This document shows, piece by piece, positions 16,025 through 19,030 of a stretch of 19,030 nucleotides of DNA; positions within the stretch are counted from its first letter, which is position 1; every line of letters starts with the position of its first letter. The DNA is from Desulfovibrio sp. Lineage in GTDB: Bacteria > Desulfobacterota > Desulfovibrionia > Desulfovibrionales > Desulfovibrionaceae. The stretch is taken from NCBI GenBank assembly GCA_020217165.1, contig JAIWOE010000053.1, positions 1-19,030 on the forward strand. The letters run 5' to 3'. The notes under the pieces are model-generated. The model saw nothing but the letters and a program-made list of their open reading frames with translations, did not search any database and was not told the origin of the DNA. The position numbers and the translations under genes were made by a program.

Positions 16025-16351
16025 TCATTCCTTGTGCAAGCGGAGCGAACCCAGGCCGGGCAGCTCCATGGCGATGGTTCCCTGCTCCCAGCGGCCGGCC
16101 ACCACGCCGCCGCTCTTGGCGTGCAGCCAGATGGCGTTGTCCCGCAGTTCCCAGCGGAAGGGCACGGTTTCTCCGCCGGCCTGCCACTCCCCGCCGCCGT
16201 CTTCGCGCAGGGTCAAAAACACCAGGGTGTCCCCCGCCGCAGCGGTGATGGAGCCGGCATACCGGCCGGCCACCTGGGTACGGTCCTGACCGCAGGCGGC
16301 GCACCACAGGCCCAGGGCCAACAGAAGGAACAGGCAGGCAGCTCGGTTCAT
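16025..16351 (-). CDS. Small probable lipoprotein (108 aa)
   Basis: A signal peptide with core LFLLLALGLW (7-16) ends at CAAC, where C20 is a possible lipid-modified Cys, although the -3 residue is Cys rather than the usual Leu. The mature part is all-beta in appearance: GRYAGSI, a strand pair around TLVFLTLREDG, then FRWELRDNAIWLH and a closing GSLRLHK. This pattern resembles small lipocalin-like or NlpE-N-like beta barrels, which is a weak structural guess. ATG 16351 overlaps the stop of the MauE/DoxX-like gene as ATGA. Its own stop overlaps the first possible ATG of the next gene. It probably faces the periplasm. Confidence 0.7.
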   Translation of the reverse strand: MNRAACLFLLLALGLWCAACGQDRTQVAGRYAGSITAAAGDTLVFLTLREDGGGEWQAGGETVPFRWELRDNAIWLHAKSGGVVAGRWEQGTIAMELPGLGSLRLHKE

Positions 16352-16839
16352 GCGTCGGTCAACTCCCGCATGGGGGGGAAGAACAGGGTATCCAGATGCA
16401 ACCAACGGTCACACTTCCAGACATAGGCGGCCATGGCCAGCCAGCCCAGATCGCGCAGCAGGGTGGCCACGCTCATGGGCTCCTCCAGGCTCTTGAAGCA
16501 GCCGCACCCGATGGGCACGCCACGGACAAGGGTGATGGCAATGGCCAGGGTGAACAACGCCAGCAGGCCGCCGATGACCACGGTGGCCGCCTTGGGCCGC
16601 AGGCCCACCAGCAGCAAGAGCCCGGCCACCAGCTCCACCCAGGGCATGATCACGGCCACGGGGTTGACCAGCACCGCCGGCACCAGCTGGTACGAGGCGA
16701 TACTTTCCGCAAACTCCGCGGCGTAGATGATTTTATACATGCTCGCGTACAGAAACAATCCGGCCAGATAGGCGCGCATGAGCAGCGCCGGCAGGGGGTG
16801 GCAGACTCGGGCCGCCCATGTGGCCACCAGGGACGTCAT
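16348..16839 (-). CDS. MauE/DoxX-family redox-associated membrane protein
   Basis: A 163-residue inner-membrane protein with four hydrophobic helices (about 17-38, 56-80, 84-105, 124-141). Helix 1 contains RAYLAGLFLYASMYKI, the DoxX/MauE-like start, and a conserved-looking GCGCF (111-115) follows helix 3, with C112 and C114 as a probable redox pair. MauE is known to be needed, together with the thioredoxin-like MauD, for disulfide formation in methylamine dehydrogenase; related proteins occur beside other exported thioredoxins. Here the thioredoxin-like gene is directly upstream and overlaps by ATGA (start 16839). It could pass electrons between the membrane and that partner. No mau structural genes are visible, so the substrate is unknown. 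Confidence 0.85.
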   Translation of the reverse strand: MTSLVATWAARVCHPLPALLMRAYLAGLFLYASMYKIIYAAEFAESIASYQLVPAVLVNPVAVIMPWVELVAGLLLLVGLRPKAATVVIGGLLALFTLAIAITLVRGVPIGCGCFKSLEEPMSVATLLRDLGWLAMAAYVWKCDRWLHLDTLFFPPMRELTDA

Positions 16840-17402
16840 TGCGGCAACAGCGATTTTATGGTCCCAAAGAATCCGTCCACATCCTGGATGATGCCCATGT
16901 GGGCGTAGCGCACCACGCCCTGGCGGTCCACCAGCATGGTGAAGGGCGTTTTGGGCTCGCCCAGGGCCTTGTGCAAGGCATAGTTCTCATCGCGCAGCAC
17001 GGGATAGGCATAGCCGGAATGCTGGCGGAGGAAATCGATTTCCGGCTCGGTGGCGCCGGAGGCAATGGCCAGCATCTTCACGGCGCCGTCCAGTTTGGCC
17101 CGGACCAGCCGGGCATGCAGAGCATTGAACGTGGGCACCTGCTGATGGCAAAATGGACAGTAGACGCCAATGATTTCAAGGAGAAACAACTCCCCGGCCA
17201 AGTCGCCAAGATTCACCACCTGCTGCTGGGCCAGGCCAAGGTAGGCCCTGTCTTCCGGGCGGTCCGGGGCCACAAGCTGCAGGGGTGGGAGGGCCTCCCC
17301 CTGCTGGGGTGCGGCGTGGGCCTGGACGAAAACACAGGCAAGGGCCAGGCACAAACACAGCCCGGCGCGCAGCAGCATGGGCACAGCGATGGGAGCGGGC
17401 AT
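16836..17402 (-). CDS. Periplasmic thioredoxin-like protein (TlpA/MauD type, CPFC)
   Basis: A 188-residue protein with a Sec signal peptide (core MLLRAGLCLCLALACVFVQA, 9-28, cleavage near AHA-A at 30). The mature part has the AhpC/TlpA-like thioredoxin fold: LFLLEIIGVYCPFCHQQVP with the active site C82-P-F-C85, and a cis-Pro region TPFTMLVDRQGVVRYAHMG in the second half. It should act in the periplasm as a thiol-disulfide reductase or oxidase. ATG 17402 follows AAGGAGG with a 4-nt gap; GTG 17417 is a weaker alternative. It is the first gene of a four-gene operon whose second gene is MauE/DoxX-like, recalling the MauD-MauE pair. The substrate is not evident. Confidence 0.9.
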   Translation of the reverse strand: MPAPIAVPMLLRAGLCLCLALACVFVQAHAAPQQGEALPPLQLVAPDRPEDRAYLGLAQQQVVNLGDLAGELFLLEIIGVYCPFCHQQVPTFNALHARLVRAKLDGAVKMLAIASGATEPEIDFLRQHSGYAYPVLRDENYALHKALGEPKTPFTMLVDRQGVVRYAHMGIIQDVDGFFGTIKSLLPQ

Positions 17403-17429
17403 GGCGCCTCCTTGCACGAGTTTCCTCCT

Positions 17430-17458
17430 CGCATACCAGAGCCAGGGAGCCGGGGCAA
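17430..17458 (-). promoter_or_regulatory. Possible sigma70 promoter of the redox operon
   Basis: On the minus strand TTGCCC (17458-17453), a 17-nt spacer and TATGCG (17435-17430). The leader would be about 20 nt to the ATG at 17402. The match is moderate. Confidence 0.45.
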
Positions 17459-17516
17459 TGCCGCATGGACGCGTCCGGCGCGCTGGGCTTGCCAGGAATT
17501 CGCCTTCATGGCAGGG

Positions 17517-17535
17517 TGGAAAAGAAAATTTTCCA
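17517..17535. repeat. AT-rich inverted repeat between divergent genes
   Basis: TGGAAAA-GAAAA-TTTTCCA is a perfect 7-bp inverted repeat in otherwise GC-rich DNA, 30 nt upstream of the transposase-like gene and about 60 nt upstream of the redox-operon promoter. No matching copy is seen after the gene, so it is not an IS end pair; an operator is the better reading. Confidence 0.45.
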
Positions 17536-17548
17536 CACGATTTTGACC

Positions 17549-17555
17549 GGGAAGG
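17549..17555 (+). promoter_or_regulatory. Shine-Dalgarno of the TTG-started transposase-like gene
   Basis: GGGAAGG with 9 nt to the TTG at 17565. It lies within a small GACC-GGGAA-GGTC hairpin (17545-17557), which may lower translation. No in-frame ATG occurs before residue 82. Confidence 0.5.
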
Positions 17556-17564
17556 TCGGCGACA

Positions 17565-18395
17565 TTGAATCTTAACACCTATGAAGCACTGATCAAATCT
17601 GAATCATCCGCCCGCAAGTGGCTGTTGGGTTTCTGCTGGAAAAACCACCAACGGTTTTGCCCGCGGTGTAAATTTCGTACCCTGTACAAATTGGCGGAAG
17701 GCCGGCGCCGGTGCGGACGCTGCAAATATACATTCCATGACTTTTCAGGGAGATACATTAATCGTGGCGGACTTGATCCCGTGGACTGGCTGCGGCTGCT
17801 CAAACTCATGGAGCTGGAAGTCTCACCGCCGGTGATGGCCGAGCAATTGGGCATGGCCGAGGCCACCGTGGCCAAGGCCCTGGTGACGGTACGGGCTTCC
17901 ATCATCGCCGGCAGCCTGGACGCCCCGGCCTGCATTGAGGCTGGCTGGGCCACGCCCTGGGAAGACGCGCCCAACCCGCCGGTATTCGGCATTGTAGAGC
18001 ACGGTGGCATGGCCTTTGTGGATCTGTTGCCCGAGCTGGCCGTGGAGTCCCTCATGCATTTCAAGTCCAGCTTCCGCCTGCGCACGCGGACCATCGGCGG
18101 CATGGTCTATACCGACCGCTACCGCCACTACACGGCCCTGGCCGCCTGTGCCCCGGAGCTGACCAAAGGGTACTTCAGCCATACGGACCGCGGCCTGGCC
18201 CTGGACAAATCCTCGGCCTTCTGGCGGTTTGCCCGCCCCCGGCTGGTGGCCCGGCAGGGCATCTCCGAAAAAGGATTCCCCTTGCTCATGAAGGAGCTGG
18301 AGTTCCGCTTTAACCATCGGCAGGACGACATTTTTTCCTTGCTTGCCCAGCGGCTGTGCATGTTTGTGCCGAACCGTGACGCAGCCGGAGCGTAA
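17565..18395 (+). CDS. IS1595/ISXO2-like transposase, catalytically degenerate, probably domesticated
   Basis: A 276-residue protein starting with TTG. Order: a zinc ribbon (C32-x2-C35 in FCPRCKF, C50-x2-C53 in RCGRCKYTF), a helix-turn-helix-like segment with DWLRLLKL (74-81) and VMAEQLGMAEATVAKAL (90-106), then an RNase H-like domain with PPVFGIVEHGG (138-148), VYTDRYRHY (181-189) and KELEFRFNHR (243-252). Compared with the family pattern, the first Asp of the DDE triad (VDE-type motif) is Gly (G127 in CIEAGW), the second is kept (D184), and the third acidic position before SFW is Ser (S217 in DKSSAFW). No terminal repeats or target duplication flank it. The frame is intact, so selection for a non-transposing role such as DNA binding is plausible. 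It lies 285 nt upstream of fdhA on the same strand. Confidence 0.8.
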   Translation: MNLNTYEALIKSESSARKWLLGFCWKNHQRFCPRCKFRTLYKLAEGRRRCGRCKYTFHDFSGRYINRGGLDPVDWLRLLKLMELEVSPPVMAEQLGMAEATVAKALVTVRASIIAGSLDAPACIEAGWATPWEDAPNPPVFGIVEHGGMAFVDLLPELAVESLMHFKSSFRLRTRTIGGMVYTDRYRHYTALAACAPELTKGYFSHTDRGLALDKSSAFWRFARPRLVARQGISEKGFPLLMKELEFRFNHRQDDIFSLLAQRLCMFVPNRDAAGA

Positions 18396-18399
18396 GCGA

Positions 18400-18427
18400 T
18401 TGCCGGGCGTTGTGTTTTTCTTAATAT
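18400..18427 (+). promoter_or_regulatory. Possible promoter in the AT-rich patch before fdhA
   Basis: TTGCCG (18400-18405), a 16-nt spacer and TAATAT (18422-18427), just past the transposase-like stop. The T-rich run TTGTGTTTTTC could instead belong to a weak terminator. If used, it would give a leader of about 245 nt. Confidence 0.35.
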
Positions 18428-18587
18428 ATCCCTCATGCTCACGCATGGGACTACCTCCTCACCGCTGCCGGCATTTGCCGGGCTGGGCCTGGACTTGGCT
18501 GTTACGGAACACTTTGCGTCCACGCTCACGCCGTGGCTCGGCAGGCTGACCATTCTGCCGCCGCGCCCATCCCACATCCCATGCACC

Positions 18588-18646
18588 GCGGGCTTTTGCC
18601 CGCCCCGGGCTCGCCTGTTTGTCACAGGACGCCTGGCGCGTGCGCC
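18588..18646 (+). other. Run of short hairpins in the fdhA leader
   Basis: The 285-nt gap 18396-18680 has no gene that I can support. It contains GCGGGC-TTTT-GCCCGC (18588-18603), an overlapping GCCCG-CCC-CGGGC (18598-18610) that would exclude the first, and GGCG-CGTG-CGCC (18635-18646) about 35 nt before the start codon. They may form an mRNA leader structure, or reflect high GC content. Confidence 0.35.
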
Positions 18647-18680
18647 GTAGGCATCCTGTTTACTGGTACTGGGAGGAAAC

Positions 18681-19030
18681 ATGCTGATCAAACGTCGTGC
18701 CTTTCTGAAGCTGACGGCTGCGGGCGCCACGCTCTCGGCCTTCGGCGGGCTGGGGGTGGATCTCGCCCCGGCCAAGGCTCAGGCGGCGACCATGGCCTTG
18801 AAGACCGTGGACGCCAAGCAGACGACCTCTGTCTGCTGTTACTGCTCCGTCGGCTGCGGCCTCATTGTGCACACCGACAAAAAGACCAACCGCGCCATCA
18901 ACGTGGAAGGCGATCCGGACCATCCCATCAACGAGGGGTCCCTGTGCGCCAAAGGCGCCTCCACCTGGCAGCTGGCGGAAAACGAACGCCGCCCCGCCAA
19001 TCCGCTGTACCGTGCCCCTGGCTCCGACCA
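18681..19030 (+). CDS. fdhA: Formate dehydrogenase large (catalytic) subunit, 5' part only
   Basis: The first 116 residues are in the window; the gene runs off the right edge. A Tat signal is clear: KRRAFLKLTAAGA (4-16) and a hydrophobic stretch to about 36, so the enzyme is exported folded with its cofactor. The [4Fe-4S] ligands follow the molybdopterin-oxidoreductase pattern, C52-x2-C55-x3-C59 (CCYCSVGCG) and C89 in GSLCAKG. This subunit binds a Mo or W bis-pterin and oxidises formate to CO2 in the periplasm. From memory the sequence after about residue 39 closely resembles the D. gigas tungsten enzyme; I cannot verify this here. The selenocysteine site, if present, lies beyond the window. 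ATG 18681 has GGGAGGA a few nt upstream. Confidence 0.93.
   Translation, partial: MLIKRRAFLKLTAAGATLSAFGGLGVDLAPAKAQAATMALKTVDAKQTTSVCCYCSVGCGLIVHTDKKTNRAINVEGDPDHPINEGSLCAKGASTWQLAENERRPANPLYRAPGSD

Follow-up and report, generated by a model that had tools for sequence, protein, structure and literature searches.

We found that a dead transposase has been retained beside the formate dehydrogenase genes of sulfate reducers for a very long time. One such gene lies in the window, as we call the whole stretch of 19,030 nucleotides of Desulfovibrio sp. DNA that was analysed, and from its sequence, its relatives and its surroundings we propose, with a probability of about 0.76, that it encodes a domesticated, catalytically inactive IS1595-type transposase that would serve as a sequence-specific regulator of the periplasmic formate dehydrogenase operon, acting through operators derived from terminal inverted repeats (TIRs). 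Formate dehydrogenase is central to the energy metabolism of sulfate reducers and is a favoured enzyme for CO2 reduction. If true, the proposal would put a specific operator at hand for fdh regulation and would offer a clear bacterial case of a DDE transposase and its inverted repeats turned jointly into a regulator-operator pair, in which active sister elements allow direct comparison with the inactive clade.

The window gene encodes an IS1595-like protein with an incomplete catalytic motif

The earlier note on this DNA, made from the letters alone, had described a full-length frame with an intact zinc ribbon, and both were borne out. The frame is present at its full 276 codons (Table 1), and its product matches the Pfam profile Zn_ribbon_IS1595 with 34.8 bits, over the cut-off of 25.4. 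Cys24, Cys32, Cys35, Cys50 and Cys53 of the ribbon are invariant in a 39-row alignment (A1) made of the query and 38 of the homologues listed, the list comprising the best 120 of the 444 found by protein search. The same protein reaches only 19.3 bits with DDE_Tnp_IS1595 (Pfam, cut-off 27) and 19.8 bits with NCBIfam transpos_IS1595 (cut-off 75), below the threshold in both cases. The neighbours are also those claimed, with the start of fdhA downstream and the redoxin and MauE/DoxX genes divergent. Another part of an fdhA gene is found on a different contig of the same genome (G000:C18), and we infer that it continues the fdhA of the window.

Table 1. Features in and around the transposase-like gene (positions in the window)
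Feature	Position	Strand	Basis or remark
Divergent MauE/DoxX-like protein	16348..16839	-	Family via cluster representative
Divergent redoxin/AhpC-TSA-like protein	16836..17417	-	Family via cluster representative
TTGACC at -22 of the start codon	17543..17548	+	Near where active relatives have the inner end of their left TIR; weak alone
Catalytically dead IS1595-like protein, 276 aa, TTG start	17565..18395	+	Open frame
Zinc-ribbon part, residues 11-56	17595..17732	+	Pfam PF12760, 34.8 bits; alignment
HTH-like helices, residues 63-116	17751..17912	+	
RNase-H/DDE-derived domain, residues 138-250	17976..18314	+	Retains Asp184 but neither the first Asp motif nor Glu217
Degenerate counterpart of the TIR-derived site, GTGCCGAACCGTG	18366..18378	+	2 mismatches to GTGCCAAANYTTG; overlaps the 3' end of the gene
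Promoter-like TTGCCG - 16 nt - TAATAT	18400..18427	+	Direct reading and aligned sites
Small ORF, 71 aa, of a conserved family upstream of fdhA	18435..18650	+	GLGFDL ... REIRGR; C-terminal motif degenerate here
fdhA, first 116 codons, Tat-like signal, cut by the contig end	18681..19028	+	Molybdop_Fe4S4 in the cluster representative

The catalytic residues were examined in a MAFFT alignment that combined 211 rows of the family and, from related genomes, 15 canonical IS1595 rows. Column 184, the second catalytic position, is Asp in 14 of the 15 canonical rows and is kept as Asp184 in the window, whereas the third position, column 217, is Glu in 14 of the 15 and has been lost to Ser217. A regular expression for a DExYFGG-like motif around the first Asp found it in 32 of the 211 family rows, 31 of which also have the other two catalytic positions (the remaining one is truncated), and did not find it in the window frame. 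The window protein therefore does not hold a complete DDE motif, with the first motif absent, Asp184 present and Ser217 in third place. The claim that the first and third DDE positions are lost thus stands, but its naming of the first as Gly127, a fair guess by eye, depends on the alignment, as MAFFT left the IEAG of the window unaligned with IEVD; the absence of the first-Asp motif is independent of how IEAG and IEVD are placed. The AF2 model of the protein has a mean pLDDT of 87.8 and a pTM of 0.86, and its residues 126-139 do not form a strand, where the first RNase-H strand is expected. Searching the PDB by sequence gave weak matches, most of them to the zinc ribbon or to antibody chains, and structure comparison with VIA-align gave weak matches centred on the HTH, in which the absence of RNase-H folds carries no weight.

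Most inactive members form one clade, and dN/dS is low

Many identical copies elsewhere in the genome would count against domestication, and we found a single match to the window protein in its own genome (340 contigs, 87% complete). Across genomes the family gives one to three matches each, where an ordinary IS1595 element yields as many as 28 with equal scores. Family matches at 1e-10 or better occur in 37 of 59 related genomes, that of the window included, and profile matches at 1e-15 or better in 14 of 297 genomes sampled across the phylum. The genome of the window also holds an ordinary IS1595-type DDE domain match of 92 bits (G000:C81:3522-3959, L137).

After removal of 2 duplicates, 5 loci without a family frame and 7 with frames shorter than 200 aa, 91 of 105 loci remained; the protein set numbered 121, one of fewer than 240 aa being omitted. 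A quick tree without bootstraps was built from 95 rows, the 91 of the family and 4 canonical ones. In it, 75 inactive rows form one clade (SH-aLRT 99), and the relatives with an intact motif, L044, L048-L054 and L070-L072 among them, branch outside it. Within the inactive clade there is a 66-row subclade with mostly formate dehydrogenase neighbours (support 98) and an 8-row subclade beside hcp, nrfHA or a sulfite-reductase-like gene (support 99). Two inactive rows, L077 and L078, were placed among the active ones and may have lost catalysis separately; joining them to the inactive clade is not rejected (AU p 0.209). Related species are non-independent samples, which bears on this and on all other cross-genome counts given here. 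The distant clade linked to hcp, nrfHA or sulfite-reductase-like genes (L079, L132, L133, L134, L129, L130, L131 and L082) suggests further regulators of the same origin.

A dN/dS analysis, which the earlier note had advised, gave low values in line with domestication. The window gene and the relative nearest to it have a dN/dS of 0.12 (NG86) or 0.06 (YN00). Sixteen of 17 pairs were computable, two of them made up of active elements, and their NG86 values span 0.04-0.30; the remaining pair, L106/L047, gave no usable dS. Mean identities between inactive and active members, compared with those among active members, are 0.67 versus 0.71 in the zinc ribbon, 0.49 versus 0.66 in the HTH and 0.36 versus 0.72 in the catalytic domain. 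The catalytic part has drifted, while the zinc ribbon is preserved and the HTH partly so.

The family gene is linked to formate dehydrogenase genes across the order

Neighbouring genes were identified by clustering the adjoining frames and scanning the cluster representatives with Pfam. In many loci fdhA and fdhB adjoin the family gene, and fdhA is often split at an in-frame stop into parts of about 190 and 804 residues, as for a selenocysteine enzyme; fdhE, fdhD, a MobA-like transferase, radical-SAM and FmdE/MoCF proteins are encoded nearby in such loci. When the 91 family rows were labelled, 58 were formate dehydrogenase-related (any such gene within seven frames), 8 had nrf, hcp or sulfite reductase neighbours, 4 had topA, 13 were active elements and 8 received no label. 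On the same contig and within 10 kb, fdhA was found at 31 of 52 family places, all 31 among the 40 strongest matches, against a chance expectation of 0.57 for the 52 (59 genomes); the window was left out of this count, since its fdhA is cut off by the end of the contig. All 35 genomes with strong family hits have fdhA, compared with 49 of 59 overall, and seen from the other side the family gene lies within 10 kb of 33 of 94 fdhA places. Another genome of the same genus as the window has two fdhA genes, and a family copy lies next to each of them; the Desulfovibrio gigas genome paper (PMC4287179) likewise describes two sets of formate dehydrogenase genes. The fdh linkage is order-wide.

Other arrangements occur as well. 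L125, L126 and four topA-linked genes have no fdh gene beside them, and the inactive members adjacent to topoisomerase I are L105, L114, L118 and L040. At L032, L034, L080, L098, L099 and L104, a block comprising a periplasmic binding protein, a histidine kinase, a response-regulator-STAS protein, a redoxin cluster, a rhodanese and MauE is divergent from the family gene, and in the window only the redoxin and MauE members of this block adjoin the gene.

A remnant of the terminal inverted repeats persists as a DNA site

Nine active sister elements, collected by pattern with L077, L078 and L086 omitted, carry the TIRs GGTRATT-N10-TGRCAC at both ends, the left one near the start codon, the right one overlapping the stop codon, for which reason the Val-Pro codons at the end of the gene are often GTGCCA. 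Around the window gene, within about 250 bp, there is no flanking inverted pair longer than 9 bp. The statement that no terminal repeats surround the gene is accordingly right for full TIRs and falls short for their parts, since many relatives have conserved half-sites derived from the TIRs.

In the inactive clade, what persists of the sisters' right TIR is its inner half, a DNA site with the sequence GTGCCARANYTTG that many loci carry at the same place, often 28-30 bp ahead of TTGAC. Among 72 loci, TTGAC follows the start of the site by 28-30 bases 15 times and by all other offsets together 6 times (L074, L077, L078 and L086 were omitted from this count and from the left-site and palindrome counts below). 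In the 44 regions between the gene and fdhA, defined by an fdhA start no more than 900 bases downstream on the same strand, GTGCCAAANYTTG occurs with at most one mismatch in 25, against 4 of 880 shuffles, a comparison in which the consensus was drawn from the same loci; the other 19 regions have at least two mismatches to it. The final Pro codon is CCA in 22 of 57 FDH-group loci, compared with 6.2 expected from local codon use. In 9 of the 25 loci the site lies beyond the stop codon, where the C-terminus of the protein has drifted, and the site is therefore held as DNA and not as protein. The aligned sites also show a weak -10-like nATAAG about 17 bases after the TTG box.

A left copy of the inner TIR was found, facing inward, upstream of the gene at 15 of 73 loci with at most one mismatch, while controls gave 0 of 73 in the opposite orientation and 2 of 1460 among dinucleotide shuffles. 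The inactive genes are devoid of full TIRs, but the inner 13 bp are kept at these loci. Upstream of the family gene, at about -110 to -90, there is also a palindrome, TTATGYC-N6-GRCATAA (spacers of 4-8 allowed), present with at most two mismatches at 19 of 73 loci, against 6 of 730 shuffles. L034, L036, L099, L100, L102, L104 and others carry it, the window not being among them, and it is probably the site of another regulator.

The counterpart of the site in the window occupies the same position as the intact sites in relatives, and taken alone it is no better than chance, with 2 matches seen in the window and 3.37 expected. Neither the genome of the window nor its congener has a strict site (the TIR-derived site together with TTGAC). 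The TTGCCG box lies 34 bases from the start of the window site, unlike the 28-30 of relatives, and a sigma-70 consensus scan of 17380-18700 returned nothing at its threshold, so that the promoter-like pair of Table 1 was not recovered. The best hit of the left-site search in the window has 3 mismatches and lies at a position other than that of the TTGACC. Because the site is degenerate in the genus of the window, the mechanism would be extended to that genus through kinship, together with linkage and selection.

Sites upstream of fdhA genes that do not adjoin the family gene

Among gene-bearing genomes, 6 of the 34 fdhA copies that are not next to the gene have the site within one mismatch (shuffles: 5 of 480) and 28 do not; in genomes without the gene the count is 0 of 14, a contrast that falls short of significance when taken alone (p 0.11). 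Three of the 34 copies (L219, L220 and L225) belong to the gene's own cluster, roughly 5-16 kb off, and two of these have the site; without the three, the comparison becomes 4 of 31 versus 0 of 14 (p 0.21). As for the topA-linked members, both fdhA upstream regions of G040, located on other contigs, carry the site, L176 with at most one mismatch and L177 exactly, and the fdhA upstream regions of G044 and G056 are without it.

The strict pattern was also searched genome-wide, with the reversed pattern as control. It gave 13 hits in 12 of the 59 related genomes (control: 1). At the level of the taxonomic family there were 26 hits, spread over 24 of 288 genomes (control: 4), and the phylum-wide sample of 297 genomes gave 2 hits, both in one gene-bearing genome (control: 1); 14 of these 297 match the family profile, yet one shows a strict site. 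Among the related genomes, 11 of 37 with the gene have a strict site, compared with 1 of 22 without it (Fisher one-sided p 0.018), and the other 26 with the gene have none. Together the hits amount to 34 distinct loci, 31 of them directly upstream of fdhA, 24 beside the family gene and 7 not, and all seven genomes with a site-bearing fdhA that is not beside the gene carry the gene elsewhere. The three loci that are not upstream of fdhA are L236, from a genome without the gene, L237 and L251. At L237 (G029:C3:77894) a good site precedes frames that by eye resemble a CoA-dehydratase activase and a dehydratase/reductase partner, and these are a possible extra target.

Proposed function and alternative explanations

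The order-wide linkage, the low dN/dS, the preserved zinc ribbon next to a drifted catalytic domain and the TIR-derived sites at fdh promoters, those of distant fdhA copies included, support the suggestion of the earlier note that the protein was domesticated as an fdh-linked DNA-binding protein, the binding itself being predicted. As a second natural target that note had named the divergent redox operon, which is not specifically supported, those genes being neighbours in only part of the loci. We propose that the dead transposase would bind the TIR-derived sites by means of its zinc ribbon and HTH. The site often starts 28-30 bp upstream of TTGAC at fdh promoters, and its centre would fall near -60 if TTGAC is the -35 element, which would make activation the likelier direction; the regulator probably acts as an activator of fdhAB, repression instead being possible. 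The inward-facing sites upstream of the gene itself in some loci suggest that it may also be autoregulated, and the signal sensed might, as a guess, be the status of tungsten, molybdenum, selenium or formate. We give an even chance to a wider reading, namely that co-option took in a bacterial DDE transposase along with its own terminal repeats, making the protein a transcription factor and the inner TIR its operator, and that duplication then spread the pair across the Desulfovibrionales into a family of regulators of redox operons (formate dehydrogenase; Hcp-NrfHA; sulfite-reductase-like genes).

Among the other explanations, it is unlikely that the site belongs to another regulator or to the promoter itself, with the dead transposase as a bystander. 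The TTG box at a near-fixed distance and the weak -10-like nATAAG after it would fit such a reading, as would the second, unrelated palindrome upstream of many family genes, a sign that other regulators probably act here, and the contrast at distant fdhA copies (6 of 34 versus 0 of 14) is small in number; yet the site is the inner TIR of the sister transposases, and all 31 strict matches upstream of fdhA, those beside the gene and those elsewhere alike, fall in gene-bearing genomes. We consider quite unlikely another role in formate dehydrogenase biogenesis, such as maturation or selenocysteine insertion, with no action on DNA. The conserved parts are the zinc ribbon and the DNA sites, and the gene also stands beside an uninterrupted (probably Cys-type) fdhA, as well as beside hcp, nrfHA, a sulfite-reductase-like gene and topA, all of which weigh against such a role, although the gene often lies ahead of fdhA on the same strand, separated from it by a small ORF, and has fdhE, fdhD and mobA homologues nearby. 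In its selenocysteine-specific form this explanation is ruled out, since the neighbours of the gene include uninterrupted fdhA and nrf/hcp genes too.

A decaying insertion-sequence relic that came to lie beside fdhA by chance and was carried along by descent would explain the derivation from an IS1595 element and the TIR remnants in relatives, but is highly improbable given the full-length frames across the order with the dN/dS range reported above, and given TIR-derived sites that lie outside the frame and at distant fdhA copies; recent decay is ruled out by dN/dS, tree and sites. That the protein is still an active transposase using other acidic residues is hardly credible. Asp184 does remain, as do conserved acidic residues, Asp119 and Glu246 among them, but these last two are no replacement residues, because they are also conserved in the rows with an intact motif (26 of 32 and 31 of 32, respectively); besides, the family has one to three matches per genome where an ordinary IS1595 element reaches 28, and no TIR pair surrounds the gene in the window.

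Relation to known systems

With IS1595 elements (ISXO2-like, PF12760 and PF12762) the dead protein shares the zinc ribbon, the HTH and the RNase-H-derived domain. The TIR sequence of the intact sisters L044, L048-L054 and L070 matches the proposed operator; these sisters have the full catalytic motif and TIRs close to the frame, and several of them lie at contig ends, whereas in the inactive clade, which is low in copy number, both the motif and the full TIRs have been lost. TldR originated from a nuclease-dead TnpB. Pfam found no TnpB domain in the window protein, and IS1595 zinc-ribbon and DDE domains were found instead. TldR is a transposon protein whose active site is lost and which now serves bacteria as a transcription factor, and the reuse of dead transposon proteins in this manner is already known. 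The likeness lies in this reuse and the difference in the mode of recognition, as TldR is RNA-guided, whereas here a DDE transposase would read a DNA site from its own TIR. In sulfate reducers, TunR is a tungstate-responsive regulator whose DNA-binding domain derives from a recombinase and which is linked to formate dehydrogenase through a metal. It resembles the present case as a regulator in the same bacteria with such a link, but belongs to another protein family, and the window protein has no ligand domain recognised by Pfam or NCBIfam. In the literature searched, which covered few subscription papers or preprints, we found no account in which an IS1595 or other bacterial DDE transposase is reused in this way together with its TIR, and the search likewise yielded no formate dehydrogenase regulator of such a kind.

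A small conserved ORF upstream of fdhA

The small ORF between the transposase-like gene and fdhA belongs to a family of 54-82 aa (alignment A2) with the pattern LPFxGLGFDL ... LLxxLgREIRGR, found upstream of fdhA. It has 257 homologues, those listed being unnamed or hypothetical, and it gave zero Pfam matches and no meaningful NCBIfam match. In G052, which lacks the dead transposase at this place, a member of this ORF family also precedes fdhA. The GLGFDL stretch of the ORF is similar to the Tat signal region of FdhA itself, which appeared as second matches in the search, and the small ORF may mimic the FdhA signal for a chaperone.
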